A program made the position numbers and the translations under genes. From a virus: a DNA stretch of 21,789 nucleotides. Where the stretch lies: positions 1-21,789 of the IMG/VR virus record IMGVR_UViG_3300015371_000208; one strand, 5' to 3'. The notes under the pieces were generated by a model, which did no database searches, was not told the origin of the DNA, and worked only from the letters and a program-made list of their open reading frames with translations. How positions within the stretch are numbered: position 1 is the first letter of the stretch; every line of letters begins with the position of its first letter. Positions 1 through 21,789 of this stretch are shown in pieces.

Positions 1-473
1 CCCAACGAAGATTGCGCCACTGTCAAAAAATCGGCGCCCGGAATTTCCGCACCGAGGCGCGAACTATTTTCCAGCGCAGACGCGCTGTGAGTTTCTGTGG
101 TCCGCGAAAAATTCGCGTCGTTTCCGAATTCGCCGCTGGCAACACGCGCCCCGAGCGCGGCGAGGGCTTGGGTTAGCTCCCCCCCCGCCCGTTGGTTGCA
201 TGCCCGGTGGGCCGGGCGTATGTCGGCGGTGCGTCCACCCAACGCCACGGGTTCGCCCACGTGGTCCAAGTCCCATGGGTCCCACGGTTGTACGTCTATT
301 CCACAACGGGGGCAGGGTTGGGGTAATCGCTCTTGCCATCGTTGGCGTAATGCGCGCCATGTTTCGGTGGTTACTGCCCGCCCGTTTATCACCCGGTTTC
401 GGTGATTGTTTCGGTGGTTGGTTTTTCGGGCGGCCACGTTCGGATAATCCTCCCCGATCAACCACGTGTCCAT
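1..473 (-). CDS. HNH endonuclease, 3' end cut by the window edge
   Basis: Translating the minus strand from ATG 473 gives 157 codons with no stop before position 1, so the gene continues outside the window. Residues 54-57 are CPRC, residues 68-71 are DLDH (the first HNH motif), and residues 85-93 end in H89, C92 and N93, giving the ββα-metal fold with a structural zinc. The N-terminal part is basic, with a short Asn/His/Arg repeat at 19-26. Small HNH proteins of this kind usually lie beside the terminase genes of cos-type phages and, as with HK97 gp74, help terminase cut DNA during packaging. Here the gene points toward the part of the genome that should hold the small terminase. Upstream in-frame codons hit stops at 501-503 and 510-512, so ATG 473 is the only good start; a weak GGAG lies 13 nt before it. 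Exact role is inferred from family and position. Confidence 0.8.
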   Translation of the reverse strand, partial: MDTWLIGEDYPNVAARKTNHRNNHRNRVINGRAVTTETWRALRQRWQERLPQPCPRCGIDVQPWDPWDLDHVGEPVALGGRTADIRPAHRACNQRAGGELTQALAALGARVASGEFGNDANFSRTTETHSASALENSSRLGAEIPGADFLTVAQSSL

Positions 474-509
474 TGCTAGCCCAACGCTCCACGCGCGCGA
501 CTACACCAA

Positions 510-570: not shown

Positions 571-671
571 GGGGCCAATGGTTGGCCCCACCCCGGGGCC
601 AATGGTTGGCCCCACCCCGGGGCCACTCATTGGCCCCCCCCGTGGGGACCATGGTTGGCCCCACCCCGGGG
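571..671. repeat. Tandem array of 24-bp palindromic repeats
   Basis: Four units lie head to tail: 571-594, 595-618, 619-642 and 643-667, with a four-base start of a fifth. Units 1 and 2 are identical. Each core is an inverted repeat, GGGGCCAA then TGG then TTGGCCCC, separated by an ACCCC linker. Unit 3 changes the spacer but keeps pairing arms (GGGGCCA, CTCAT, TGGCCCC). Unit 4 starts GGGGACCA and pairs less well. The array covers the last 13 or so codons of the winged-helix gene and the start of the gap before the HNH gene. It could be iterons of a replication origin, a stack of RNA hairpins, or a protein-binding array. Confidence 0.9.
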
Positions 672-977
672 TAGCAATTCATAGGCGGTGGACCCTCCGG
701 GTTGTTGGGTGTGCACCGCTATTAGGCCGTGTTTATGTAGCTCCCGGATTGCGCGTTTAATCTCTTTCCGGCCGTATGCGTTGGGGCCCCATTCGTGGGG
801 GCCGTATATCTCTATAGCTAATAGGCGGTGCCCACCCCAATAGATCCGGGCGGGCTTGTCCGCTTTGGGTTTATCCAACGCGTGGGCGGCCATGAGGATG
901 AGCACCAACCGGGGACCGTGCGGCACCCGGTCCATGGCTGTGGCCCGGGCCGCCTCCACCACCAATTGGCCGCCCAT
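627..977 (-). CDS. Winged-helix DNA-binding protein, possible replication initiator
   Basis: This 116-residue protein starts at ATG 977, in a TGATG junction with the stop of the preceding gene. An upstream GTG/ATG extension in the same frame exists but would overlap that gene. The middle reads as a hydrophobic helix (LVLILMAAHALD), and the second half looks like a winged helix, with a recognition-helix segment near YGRKEIKRAIRELHKHGLI and a following β-wing. Such domains occur in phage replisome organisers, plasmid initiators and transcription factors. The last 13 or so residues (Gly/His-rich) are encoded inside the tandem palindrome array, which resembles the arrangement in which an initiator gene contains its own origin. 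It is next to last in the early operon. The DNA-binding call is fair; the initiator role is inference. Confidence 0.6.
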   Translation of the reverse strand: MGGQLVVEAARATAMDRVPHGPRLVLILMAAHALDKPKADKPARIYWGGHRLLAIEIYGPHEWGPNAYGRKEIKRAIRELHKHGLIAVHTQQPGGSTAYELLPRGGANHGPHGGGQ

Positions 978-3553: not shown

Positions 3554-4338
3554 GACGCCACCGCCGGCAGCTCTAACGGAGCGAACACCGATTGGGCCGG
3601 TTTCTCCGCTGCCCATTCGGCCACCGGGATCATGTGGCGGAACACGTCATATAGCCCCTCATCGGAGCGGACCGGAACCAAGCGGTAGCCATCGGGCCGG
3701 ACATGGACCACCCCGGCCCGGTCCGTCCGGAACATGGGTTGGTCCCATAGCTCCGTGCCGTAGTCCACTTGAATGTGGGTGGCGTGGCGGTAGGTGGCTA
3801 GTTGCAAGGCATGCTCCGGGTACACCCCGGAGCCCGTCTTGTAGTCCAACACCCACGTGGCCCCGTCCCGGAGCTTGGCCACTAGGTCCACCGTCCCGGC
3901 CCACAAGTCAACTTCGTTGAATAGGGGCCGTTCCGCTGCCAGCGGCTCCACGTCCCATTCATCCATGAAAGCGGCGAGGTGGAGCGCGGAGCGCATTTCG
4001 TCTTCTGGCCACGGTTCGCCCGTGTCCGGGTCCCGGGGTGTGATCGGTTCCCCGCCCACAAGTTGGAGCGCGGCCCGGTGGATCCGGGTCCCCCGTTCGG
4101 CGGAGGCATTCCACACTTCCCGGTGGGCGTCCCGCGCGGCAAGGATCCAAGCGGACTCGCCCATGGCGTCCACCTCCCCGAAATGGTGGAGGGCCCACAA
4201 CGCTGCCTCCCGGGCGGCCGCGTACGCCAAACCCGGTTTCTCCGAAGCCTTGCCAATGGTGGTGGTCACGTTGGGGACCCGCCGGCCATCCAACGCGTAC
4301 CGGTGCCACCTCTCGTCATAGGTCAACCGGCTGGTCAC
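3550..4338 (-). CDS. RecB/Cas4-like PD-(D/E)XK exonuclease
   Basis: GTG 4338 overlaps the stop of the HTH gene as GTGA, giving 262 residues. The motif set of the RecB-type nuclease family is clear: RGTRIH with H87, GTVD with D151, DYK at 165-167, and QLATY at 179-183. These place the metal-binding Asp residues, the catalytic Lys and the QxxxY helix in the normal order. Phage enzymes of this type degrade one strand of duplex ends and are usually paired with an annealing protein, here ERF. No four-cysteine iron-sulphur cluster is visible, so it is more like stand-alone phage RecB-like exonucleases than true Cas4. It acts in the cytoplasm on linear or nicked phage DNA. Confidence 0.85.
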   Translation of the reverse strand: MTSRLTYDERWHRYALDGRRVPNVTTTIGKASEKPGLAYAAAREAALWALHHFGEVDAMGESAWILAARDAHREVWNASAERGTRIHRAALQLVGGEPITPRDPDTGEPWPEDEMRSALHLAAFMDEWDVEPLAAERPLFNEVDLWAGTVDLVAKLRDGATWVLDYKTGSGVYPEHALQLATYRHATHIQVDYGTELWDQPMFRTDRAGVVHVRPDGYRLVPVRSDEGLYDVFRHMIPVAEWAAEKPAQSVFAPLELPAVAS

Positions 4339-5312: not shown

Positions 5313-5347
5313 GGGCGGCCCCGTCAGTAGCAATGACGGGGCCGCCC
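5313..5347 (+). terminator. Terminator after the repressor
   Basis: A perfect 14-bp stem (arms 5313-5326 and 5334-5347) encloses the loop GTAGCAA, 12 bases after the repressor stop. The tail GTCTATCTT is only moderately T-rich. The stem is very GC-rich and should terminate rightward transcription efficiently. Confidence 0.85.
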
Positions 5348-5430
5348 GTCTATCTTGACGCTTAGCGGCCACCCCTAGGCAACCGGGCCGCTACCCCCAC
5401 AACAACACTTCTCCGGGGAGGGACACCCAC

Positions 5431-5787
5431 GTGAGACAGGCAAGACGCACCACCGAACCCGAGCTACGGGACGCGCCATCCTTTGCCCAATCGTTGACAG
5501 ACAGGCAACTACATTGCCGGGAGCTTGGCCACGAATGGCGCGACCACACGGTGACGTGGGATACCCAAGCCCGCGTCTTTGACCGGGCCCTACGGTGCCG
5601 TAGTTGCGGCACTATCCGCCGGCAAGTGCTGGACCGCCGGGGGCACGTGATCCGGAACGGATACAACTACGGGCCGGGCTATCTGGCAACTAAGGTTCAG
5701 AACCGGGACGGACTCAACAACCGGGACGTGTTCCGGTTGGAGGCTTTGACCCGATGGCTAGAACACAACAACGTGAAAGCGGGCTAA
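5431..5787 (+). CDS. Zinc-binding protein, 118 aa
   Basis: GTG 5431 has a GGGGAGG ribosome site about ten bases before it. The product has a C-x4-GHEW segment near residue 29 and a CRSCG knuckle near residue 56, followed by basic and Tyr/Gly-rich stretches (GYNYGPGYL). Two Cys/His pairs of this spacing suggest one zinc ribbon. Similar small proteins lie near repressors and in early regions of actinobacterial phages and integrative elements, but none that I know of has a defined function. The gene follows the repressor terminator, with a TTGACG at 5355-5360 that could be part of its own promoter, and is followed after three bases by the C2H2 protein, so the two are probably co-transcribed. Confidence 0.7.
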   Translation: MRQARRTTEPELRDAPSFAQSLTDRQLHCRELGHEWRDHTVTWDTQARVFDRALRCRSCGTIRRQVLDRRGHVIRNGYNYGPGYLATKVQNRDGLNNRDVFRLEALTRWLEHNNVKAG

Positions 5788-17502: not shown

Positions 17503-18249
17503 TCACCACGGGATGGCTTCACCGAACGGGCGGTGGTCGGAGCTGGCGTCATCCTTTAGGAGTTTGGCTTTCGACGGTTTGCACGTGGCCATCGTGAAAT
17601 CGATTAGGCGGTTTCCGTGGGTGCCCTTGTCGTTGGGGGGTTCCCGGTCCCCAGCCCACGTATTGAACATGGACGGAAAGTAATCGTTTACCCGTTGCAT
17701 CCAATCGGAGGAATGTACGTCCACGTTCCAATCCCCGGTGAGCATTCCTAAATCGGGGTGGTCCCGCTTCCGGATTTGGTTCCAATAGTCACCCCACCCA
17801 TTGACGGCCGATTTCCACGCGGCCGCTTGGGCGTTGTCGTAAAAGTGGTTTCCGTTTTGTACGTGGCTAGGCAGGTGGCATGCGGAGAGGAAGACGGTCC
17901 CCCCGTTTTTGTGTTCCAACAACGCGGTGGCACACCACGTTTCATGTTTCCGCCCCTGCCCATCGGTCCACACTTTATTGGTGAGCTTGTGGGGCTCTTT
18001 CCATACGGGCGAGAAATCCGCTTTACGCCACATGAGCCCCACATCCGATTGGGACGGAACCCACGCGGCCCAATTGTCCGGGTCCGCATCCTTTAGGACT
18101 TTCGTCCGGGAATCGGAGCCCACCTCCGTGAGTGTCAACACGGTGGCGTTGGGGTCCTCCGCCTCCACCGCGCGTTCCACTTGGTTGGCCAACGATTGGG
18201 CCGATTCCGAATAGAGCGATGAGGAATGAGCGTGGCGAATGGTGGTCAC
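17503..18249 (-). CDS. Endonuclease/exonuclease/phosphatase (EEP) family enzyme
   Basis: GTG 18249 overlaps the protease stop as GTGA, giving 248 residues; a longer frame upstream is a shadow of the protease gene. All EEP motifs are in order: LTLTEV with E42, ACHLPSH with H125, GDWNVD with D173 and N175, LIDF with D217, and SSDHRPF with D238-H239. These residues bind Mg2+ and catalyse phosphodiester or phosphoester cleavage in DNase I, exonuclease III and related enzymes. No signal peptide is visible. Its substrate is unknown; DNA is the default guess. Lying between the head protease and the capsid gene, it is expressed with head genes and may act on phage or host DNA during late infection or be packaged in the head. 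Confidence 0.85.
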   Translation of the reverse strand: MTTIRHAHSSSLYSESAQSLANQVERAVEAEDPNATVLTLTEVGSDSRTKVLKDADPDNWAAWVPSQSDVGLMWRKADFSPVWKEPHKLTNKVWTDGQGRKHETWCATALLEHKNGGTVFLSACHLPSHVQNGNHFYDNAQAAAWKSAVNGWGDYWNQIRKRDHPDLGMLTGDWNVDVHSSDWMQRVNDYFPSMFNTWAGDREPPNDKGTHGNRLIDFTMATCKPSKAKLLKDDASSDHRPFGEAIPW

Positions 18250-18818
18250 GGCCGGGCCGGCAGTCCGTCCAGCCACGAGCGGATCGAATCCAACCCGGGG
18301 GTGGGTGATGGCTCCTCCACGGTGATGTGTTCCCGGGCCACCAACACCCCGGCCCCCGCGTATTGGGGTTGGGCGGTGGCGGCCACATGGGAGAGCCCGC
18401 ACAACTCCCGCCATGTCACCCGGTTGTCTGGCGGGCCATCGGTGCGGGACCGGTACACCCGGGCGGACACGCTCCATCCGGTGAGTTCGCCCGCCCGGGC
18501 CGCTTCCGCTTGGGGGTGGGTCCGGTCAATGCGGAACGTGGCCCGGAGCCCGGCCGGCTCTTCCCCAAGCCCCACGCACCTGCCTAGGAACCGGTCCCCA
18601 TCGTCCCCGTGGTGGCCCAACATGAGGTTGACCCACCGCCCACCTTTGGCCACGTCCCGGCCGAAACACCCGGGCGCGAACCCTTCCCGGTAGTAGCTGG
18701 TTCCGTCATCGGTGACCCGGTGCGGGATCCCGTAGGGGACCGCTATCCCCTCCACGGTCCACCCGTCCCCGATGGGTTCCAATGCGGGGGCTTCCCGGTT
18801 AATCAGTAGTTCACTCAT
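18246..18818 (-). CDS. HK97-type prohead protease
   Basis: ATG 18818 overlaps the end of the portal gene by eight bases, giving 190 residues. The serine protease triad is visible: His69/70 in LMLGHHGD, Ser116 in GWSVSARV (S118 next), and Glu138 in WRELCGLSHV. The enzyme matures the head by cutting the delta domain from the capsid protein and then degrading itself. N-terminal strands and the WRELCGLSHVA segment follow the family. Coupled translation with the portal supports the call. Confidence 0.93.
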   Translation of the reverse strand: MSELLINREAPALEPIGDGWTVEGIAVPYGIPHRVTDDGTSYYREGFAPGCFGRDVAKGGRWVNLMLGHHGDDGDRFLGRCVGLGEEPAGLRATFRIDRTHPQAEAARAGELTGWSVSARVYRSRTDGPPDNRVTWRELCGLSHVAATAQPQYAGAGVLVAREHITVEEPSPTPGLDSIRSWLDGLPARP

Positions 18819-20223: not shown

Positions 20224-21720
20224 CTAGTACACAAAGAATTCCAACGTTTCGGCCGCCGGTTCGGCCGCCGCTTGCACCGCCCACGCGGTGGCCCGGAGCA
20301 AATCCGAGCGGACCCCCTTGTGGGCCGGGGTGAGCCCGCCGTTAGAGGTGGGGACCAACCGGACCGAACCGACTTGGGCGGCCATGGCGTCATCCCCGGA
20401 ATGACACAACCGCCCCGAGCGGACCAAGCTCCGGAGCAGCGGAAGCCCCGCATAGGTGTGGGCGGTCCCGCACCGCTCCACCTCCGGCCCCAACACTTCG
20501 GCCAGCTCCGGTTCCGGGAGACTCCCGCCGGCCCGGATCCGGCCACCCCGCCGGCCCCGGGTGAACGCGGCCCACGCGTATGCCTCCGCCCGGGTGGTGA
20601 ACACGTCCCCCCACACCAACACCCGGCCGTCCGGGAGGTTCACGGCAGCGGCCGCCGCTGCCCCCAACCCGTAGTAGTCCTCCACCGCCACCGCCACCGG
20701 GCCATCCGGTACGGGCGCGTACAAGTCCGCCGCGTGGGCCCATTGGTCCGGGTCCACCAAAAGTTCCGCCCGGGCCGAAGCCACGATGCGGCGAACCGGC
20801 CACACGTTGAGGAATTGGGACCGGAAAGACTCCACCGGGTCCGCTTCGTCCGGGTCCACGCTTTGGCCGCCCGTGGCCCGGGCGTACTTGGCTTCCATGA
20901 GCCGTTCCCGAGCCGGCCCCCAATGCGGGGACGCCAACCGCCACGCGGCCCGGTCCCCCACCTCCGCGTCACGCGGTGCGGACCACTCCAAGAGCAGGGA
21001 GGTTCCGCCCGGTTCGGCCCACCGATCCAACAACGCGGCCCGGCGAACCGGGACCAACCCGGTACAGGACCGGTGGGCGGTGGAGAACATGACCAATTGG
21101 CCGTTGGAGGTTTCCGCCAACGTGGGTTCCAAACCCTCTTCCACGACGGCCGCCCCCAGCTTCCATGCCTCATCGGCCAACGCCAGCGTGGACGCGTAGC
21201 CATAGACCGATTGGTGGGCCCGGACCACCCACCGGTTGAGCCCGTCCGGGGTCCAAATCTCCTGTTGCCCGTTGGCTTCCCGGGTGGTGTAGCCAATCTC
21301 CCGGGACGCGATCCGGGCCCGCCGCTGCACCTCCGCGCACACTTGAATGTCCTTGCCGGTGTGCATCACCAATTGGGGTTCGCCGAACCGTGCCGCTTGA
21401 TGCAACCGCCACCACGCAAGGACCACCAACAGAACCGACTTCCCCACCTGTCGGGCCGTGGACACCAACACGTCCACCCACACCAACGCCCCCGCCGCGT
21501 CATGCTCCAACAGGCGGAACACCGCCAACGCTTGCCACCACCGGAGCGTGAGCCCCAACGTGGCCGCCAGCTCCACCACCTCCGGGCCGAAACTCCCCAC
21601 CGCGTCCGGGTGGGGTCCGCTCATGAGGCGCGGCCACGTGGCATCCGCCGGCACGGAGCGCAGATCCACCAACCACGGGCAGTCATCCCACACCGAATGT
21701 GACGGGCCGGGGGTCCCCAC
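20224..21720 (-). CDS. terL: Terminase large subunit
   Basis: From GTG 21720 the product is 498 residues. The ATPase has a Walker A-like STARQVGKS at 87-95 and a Walker B with D183-E184 (ALADEAW). The C-terminal half is the RNase H-type nuclease that cuts DNA at packaging start and end; an acidic AVEDYYG segment and DVF are likely metal-site residues. The start is uncertain: no good ribosome site precedes GTG 21720 and the frame stays open for 23 more codons to the window edge at 21789, so the gene may begin outside. The adjacent small terminase subunit is not in the window. The gene leads the visible late operon. Confidence 0.93.
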   Translation of the reverse strand: MGTPGPSHSVWDDCPWLVDLRSVPADATWPRLMSGPHPDAVGSFGPEVVELAATLGLTLRWWQALAVFRLLEHDAAGALVWVDVLVSTARQVGKSVLLVVLAWWRLHQAARFGEPQLVMHTGKDIQVCAEVQRRARIASREIGYTTREANGQQEIWTPDGLNRWVVRAHQSVYGYASTLALADEAWKLGAAVVEEGLEPTLAETSNGQLVMFSTAHRSCTGLVPVRRAALLDRWAEPGGTSLLLEWSAPRDAEVGDRAAWRLASPHWGPARERLMEAKYARATGGQSVDPDEADPVESFRSQFLNVWPVRRIVASARAELLVDPDQWAHAADLYAPVPDGPVAVAVEDYYGLGAAAAAAVNLPDGRVLVWGDVFTTRAEAYAWAAFTRGRRGGRIRAGGSLPEPELAEVLGPEVERCGTAHTYAGLPLLRSLVRSGRLCHSGDDAMAAQVGSVRLVPTSNGGLTPAHKGVRSDLLRATAWAVQAAAEPAAETLEFFVY

Positions 21721-21789
21721 GGACGGTTCTGCGTCGTCAGGGTCAGCAGCGTACGTTTCGGGGCCGTTTTGGGTAGGAAAGTACGCGGC

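Follow-up and report, generated by a model that had tools for sequence, protein, structure and literature searches.

Comparison with described replication origins

In phage lambda, dimers of the O protein bound to inverted-repeat iterons open a neighbouring 40-bp A+T-rich region, and plasmid iteron origins with DnaA boxes have been described as well (PMC5043065). The RepA origins of mycobacterial extrachromosomal prophages are reported to contain no repeated motifs (PMC7157519). Here we describe an array of four tandem palindromes of about 19 bp at positions 571-662 of the IMG/VR virus record IMGVR_UViG_3300015371_000208, which was analysed over its whole length of 21,789 bases (the window). 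The array overlaps the 3' end of a gene for a predicted winged-helix protein and lies ahead of a gene that joins an HNH endonuclease to the large terminase (HNH-TerL). Comparison with related phages indicates that the array is probably the core of the phage replication origin. The ~22-kb phages of this family have no known origin, and the collections searched contain no cultured phage closely related to them.

The annotated lambda origin consists of four imperfectly palindromic iterons spaced 20, 24 and 23 bp, against 24, 24 and 25 bp in the window. The two loci share four iterons of ~18-20 bp with dyad symmetry, 20-24 bp apart, a low-GC stretch and an adjoining gene for an initiator, which in the window is a candidate. 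In contrast to lambda, where the array lies in the middle of the gene, the array of the window is located at the 3' end or past it, and the protein proposed as initiator has a length of ~110-120 aa, with no second domain and no recognised P-like loader. DnaA boxes in relatives, a variable iteron sequence and two relatives with direct repeats further distinguish the locus from lambda. The iteron size, symmetry and spacing, the array in or beside a gene and the adjacent A+T-rich element are as in a lambda-type origin, while neither a helicase-loader partner (P) nor a loader-binding C-terminal domain was recognised among the scanned ORFs (open reading frames). On this comparison the locus would act like a lambda or plasmid iteron origin with a minimal initiator; the missing loader function is the reason for not classing it as a lambda O/P system.

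Iteron plasmid origins of the P1 and pSC101 type resemble the locus in their constant-period repeats, nearby DnaA boxes and low-GC element, but most of the units described here are palindromic, and the protein proposed as initiator consists of one short winged-helix domain. The mycobacterial RepA prophages share with this family an actinobacterial phage background and an initiator (here a candidate) bearing a helix-turn-helix, but, unlike them, the window phage encodes a serine integrase.

The palindrome array in the window

Iterons 1 (571-589) and 2 (595-613) share one sequence, GGGGCCAATGGTTGGCCCC, with perfect arms (GGGGCCAA/TTGGCCCC). Iteron 3 (619-637, GGGGCCACTCATTGGCCCC) has lost one arm pair, and iteron 4 (644-662, GGGGACCATGGTTGGCCCC) carries two mismatches; the units were given no strand. 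The Tandem Repeats Finder (TRF) score of the array is 144, compared with a maximum of 72 among 200 dinucleotide shuffles, and five matches to the palindrome unit (with up to three mismatches) were observed where 0.82 were expected, a count reached by none of 100 shuffles. The array is far above chance.

A preliminary description of this DNA had reported four 24-bp units with the same arms throughout, placed in the 3' end of the winged-helix gene. The four tandem units are confirmed, although the last spacing is 25 rather than 24 bp and the perfect arms are restricted to units 1 and 2. The pairing said to be kept in unit 3 is not: position 8 has changed from A to C while its partner, position 12, is still T. 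As for the location, the winged-helix stop codon (TGA, 627-629, minus strand) falls inside unit 3, so that the coding sequence takes in unit 4 and a portion of unit 3, whereas units 1 and 2 lie downstream of the gene.

Arrays in related phages

Relatives are IMG/VR contigs retrieved with ERF, TerL and HNH as anchors; five of them carry two identifiers (G014=L106, G017=L109, G018=L110, G026=L111 and G021=L043). The ERF protein search yielded L010 and L011, complete or nearly so and with the gene order of the window, and HNH and TerL profiles led to the phage family with genomes of ~22 kb. With single window proteins as queries, neither the winged-helix gene nor its neighbour yielded a close relative. 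Among annotated phages there was no relative at the DNA level and none for the winged-helix protein, and a profile of nine sequences was too diverse for scanning. In bacterial genomes the HNH profile had no match, and the TerL profile detected only distant prophages, all in Actinomycetota (Nocardioides, Kribbella and others), which lack this array.

At the corresponding place, ahead of the HNH-TerL gene, thirteen relatives have a tandem array whose period is 22-25 bp, and the repeat sequence differs in each. The first set comprises nine relatives (L010, L011, L019, G014, G017, G018, G026, G021 and L042). In both L010 (unit GGTGGGTGATGACCCACC) and L011 (unit GTGGGACATACGGTGTCCCAC) the array has a period of 23 bp and lies between the winged-helix gene and HNH, with sequences unlike that of the window. 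The second set consists of five new family loci found with another HNH profile, of which L143, L144, L146 and L151 carry arrays (imperfect in L144, direct repeats in L146) and L148 is ambiguous. A tandem-palindrome scan of ~200 kb gave matches at the array place only, apart from one low-complexity match in G017.

The array overlaps the gene's 3' end in the window and adjoins the winged-helix gene in most relatives; the four relatives that lack this gene (L020, L048, L052 and L055) lack the array as well. The preliminary description had named an absent or scrambled array beside close homologues as grounds for refuting an origin; beside winged-helix homologues the array was neither, keeping its period, copy number and place, whereas the repeat sequence itself is not conserved. 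Nor does the placement of the array inside the gene hold for the family, since it lies downstream by ~200 bp or more in L019 and G014, and by ~1.2 kb in G026. Because the units of G017 are direct repeats and G014 has a full palindrome in its middle unit only, the palindrome is common but not essential, with period and number as the constant features. The alternative that the array is a neutral tandem duplication of the kind slippage easily makes can be dismissed: more than ten divergent phages, whose repeat sequences differ, share its place, period and number.

As a separate observation, L020 (~3870-3910), L048 (~5333-5433) and L052 (~5480-5570) have GCATGC-type or ACGG-type repeats before HNH in place of the array, possibly another type of origin.

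DnaA boxes and the low-GC stretch

Exact DnaA boxes (TTRTCCACA) were counted in ten genomes (193 kb), and seven of the nine are no further than 250 bp from the centre of the array, a zone that makes up 2.6% of the sequence (binomial p = 2e-10). TTATCCACA was counted five times, which none of 600 permuted 9-mers reached. The seven boxes near the array are located at -60 to -68 and +115 to +142 from it, in a single orientation. The second set contains four exact boxes in three of its five loci, all of them in the 300 bp that precede HNH, and the remainder of the five loci has none; L144, L146 and L151 have boxes at -226 to -277 from the HNH match and L146 another at -78. Altogether, exact boxes near the array are present in 8 of 14 relatives, and not in the window, which forms with L010 and L011 a subclade without them.

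Directly after the array on the minus strand lies a candidate DNA-unwinding element (519-568), an A-rich and T-poor stretch with 48% GC, at the 1.1 percentile of the window. In all ten genomes measured the 50 nt after the array fall between the 0.2 and 7th GC percentile of their own genome, although in absolute terms the drop is modest (46-58% GC), and most of these stretches are A-rich and T-poor, often with short repeats such as GGAACCAA. A motif, CGCGCGCG (492-499, minus strand), was seen by eye between the array and HNH in many relatives. It also occurs in relatives without this array (L020 and L048), and in some it directly precedes a DnaA box.

The winged-helix protein

The gene, a probable origin-binding initiator as predicted from a structural model, homologue alignment and weak family matches, encodes 116-123 aa on the minus strand (627-977 or 627-998). 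Homologue alignment places the start at a conserved ATG (977-975) that overlaps the stop codon of the preceding zinc-finger gene; translation could also begin at an ATG further upstream (998). The AlphaFold2 model is a winged helix (H-H-H-H-E-E) with a pLDDT of 75.7. Five of nine winged-helix members weakly match phrog_270, annotated as replication initiation protein, and others match O-like families, the best being phrog_391 (replication initiation O-like, E=4.5e-4). A search for fold neighbours among viral structures included replication protein O of phage Min27 (E=1.2e-3). PDB fold searches returned generic winged helices only, the neighbours being transcription factors, with TubR among the weak matches, and a sequence search of solved structures was uninformative.

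The window had been described as lacking polymerase, helicase and primase, and none was found among the main ORFs scanned, the smallest ORFs being outside the scan. No other replication gene was recognised among the scanned ORFs, which was counted in favour of an origin.

Weighing the origin against alternatives

The array is read as a probable origin core because its sequence varies between relatives but its position, period and copy number do not, because exact DnaA boxes cluster at it, because a low-GC stretch follows it in all ten genomes, because the winged-helix proteins weakly but repeatedly match replication-initiation families, and because the lambda origin has four imperfectly palindromic iterons at like spacing. 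The earlier suggestion of a lambda-type origin beside the gene of a DNA-binding initiator is therefore supported by the conserved arrays, the DnaA boxes and the low-GC stretch.

Several points weigh against this reading. Each protein-family match of the winged-helix proteins is weak on its own, and a profile comparison with lambda O itself gave nothing significant. The protein is a single domain with no helicase-loader domain, and no loader gene was seen among the scanned ORFs. Exact DnaA boxes near the array are missing from the window, L010, L011, L143, G018, L019 and L148; the first count was made after the boxes had been spotted by eye, so that independence holds for the second set only. 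The distance between winged-helix gene and array is ~1.2 kb in G026, and the neighbouring genes of L146 and L148 are only partly annotated. GC skew, which had been proposed as a check, gave detrended minima within 750 bp of the array in five of seven genomes, but these are closer to the genome ends; it does not separate the array from the ends and was not used.

Gene order provides the argument for the alternative that survives best, although it is unlikely: that the array is an operator of the late operon and the winged-helix protein, encoded by the last early gene, a late regulator that switches on HNH-TerL and the structural genes. The early genes of the window run on the minus strand in the order xis-like, exonuclease, ERF annealing protein, Hjc-like resolvase, zinc finger and winged-helix, followed by the array and then HNH, and the structural genes begin with TerL at the opposite end of the window. 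The array is located exactly at the boundary of early and late genes, on one strand throughout and ahead of HNH-TerL. Three of the nine winged-helix members also weakly match phrog_2440, a transcriptional-regulator family, in line with the transcription factors among the PDB neighbours. However, replication-initiation families were matched more often by the same nine members, a late promoter would not be expected to have DnaA boxes at set distances, and no convincing promoter was found between the array and the HNH gene, the sole consensus match (472-444) lying at the HNH start.

The same neighbourhood could, with still lower probability, be read in terms of packaging, with the winged-helix protein as small terminase and the array as the site it binds, similar to cosB and close to the genome ends. 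A separate gene for a small terminase was not recognised, the winged-helix gene is directly upstream of HNH-TerL, and the contig ends, probably the packaging cut (cos), are ~570 bp from the array. Yet none of the nine winged-helix members matches a small-terminase family, and the DnaA boxes are left without explanation. The small terminase of HK97 binds 15 bp beginning 15 bp downstream of the cut (PMC11331095), within 30 bp of it and not at an array ~500 bp off.

A partition site, or another DNA-binding scaffold with no role in starting replication, is very improbable. Winged-helix proteins such as TubR do bind iteron arrays, and TubR is among the weak fold matches, but neither an ATPase nor a GTPase for partition was seen, the phage encodes a serine integrase, and the DnaA boxes are again unexplained. 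The preliminary description had also offered a hairpin RNA regulator or a terminator stack before HNH, which is now hardly credible. The window RNA folds strongly (z -3.9), but no T-run follows the hairpins, no terminator was called at the array and no Rfam match was found in it. The direct-repeat relatives G017 (z -1.9) and L146 (z -0.1), which largely refute this proposal, show little or no excess folding; their direct repeats imply that the conserved feature is the period of a DNA repeat and not a hairpin.

Proposed mechanism and evolution of the probable origin

If the array is the origin core, the adjacent winged-helix protein would bind three or four iterons spaced ~23-25 bp, probably as one dimer per palindrome. 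The bound array may then bend and destabilise the neighbouring low-GC, T-poor stretch (519-568), at which the host helicase would be loaded and the host polymerase recruited. In about half of the relatives, boxes ~60 bp ahead of the array and 115-142 bp beyond it suggest that host DnaA assists, as at plasmid iteron origins. As the subclade of the window has no recognised DnaA boxes near the array, its initiator would have to work without them or through unrecognised ones.

Since the iteron sequence varies by phage while position, period and number stay, the simplest account, which we infer from these comparisons, is that each array co-evolves with its own winged-helix protein. A further proposal, offered tentatively, is that of a fast-diverging, exchangeable origin cassette, in which a single-domain winged-helix initiator and its private iterons change specificity together from phage to phage, always at one location close to the genome ends. 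Host DnaA would be used by some lineages, while others would have lost this use, with palindromic and direct-repeat forms interconverting. If true, this would be a minimal class of origin for actinobacterial phages that requires no phage helicase, primase or loader. The segment of gene plus array, a predicted origin, is short and portable and could yield new replicons for actinobacteria, and the family provides a natural set of cases where a DNA-binding protein may have changed in step with its sites.

The HNH-TerL gene and other observations

What had been called an HNH gene is present, with PHROG HNH matches (3-473, minus strand, running off the contig end), but in relatives it corresponds to the N-terminal half of one ORF that encodes both HNH and TerL. 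The other half, the large terminase, is located at 20224-21789 (minus strand) and is likewise cut off by the contig end. In 16 of 16 junction-spanning contigs the ORF runs through HNH and TerL without a break, for instance at 7740-9905 in L011, 4010-5929 in L019 and 5500-7503 in L043. Many family contigs start 48-113 bp before TerL or stop just after HNH. That contig ends fall within one continuous ORF suggests that cos lies inside the fused gene, splitting it across the ends of the virion DNA.

At this end, positions 1-77 of the window are identical to L011 8256-8332 (77 nt, HNH end), while the HNH protein is only ~55% identical (tblastn); this stretch is a candidate cos element, or else the product of a recent exchange. 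Other relatives, too, have a T-run a short distance from the contig end.

Elsewhere in the window, an ORF at 17503-18477 (minus strand) lies between the head protease and the major head protein. It has no Pfam or PHROG match, and its C-terminal half resembles by eye an endonuclease/exonuclease/phosphatase-type nuclease (GDWNVD..., SSDHRPF). Finally, relatives have in common a protein of ~120 aa or longer, which has no convincing family match and is recognised by the pattern LWHYTC.HG ... VWLTDL ... PNRDALGLT (L010 8855-9220, L011 5533-5958, L019 2839-3210 and L111 3150-3558).
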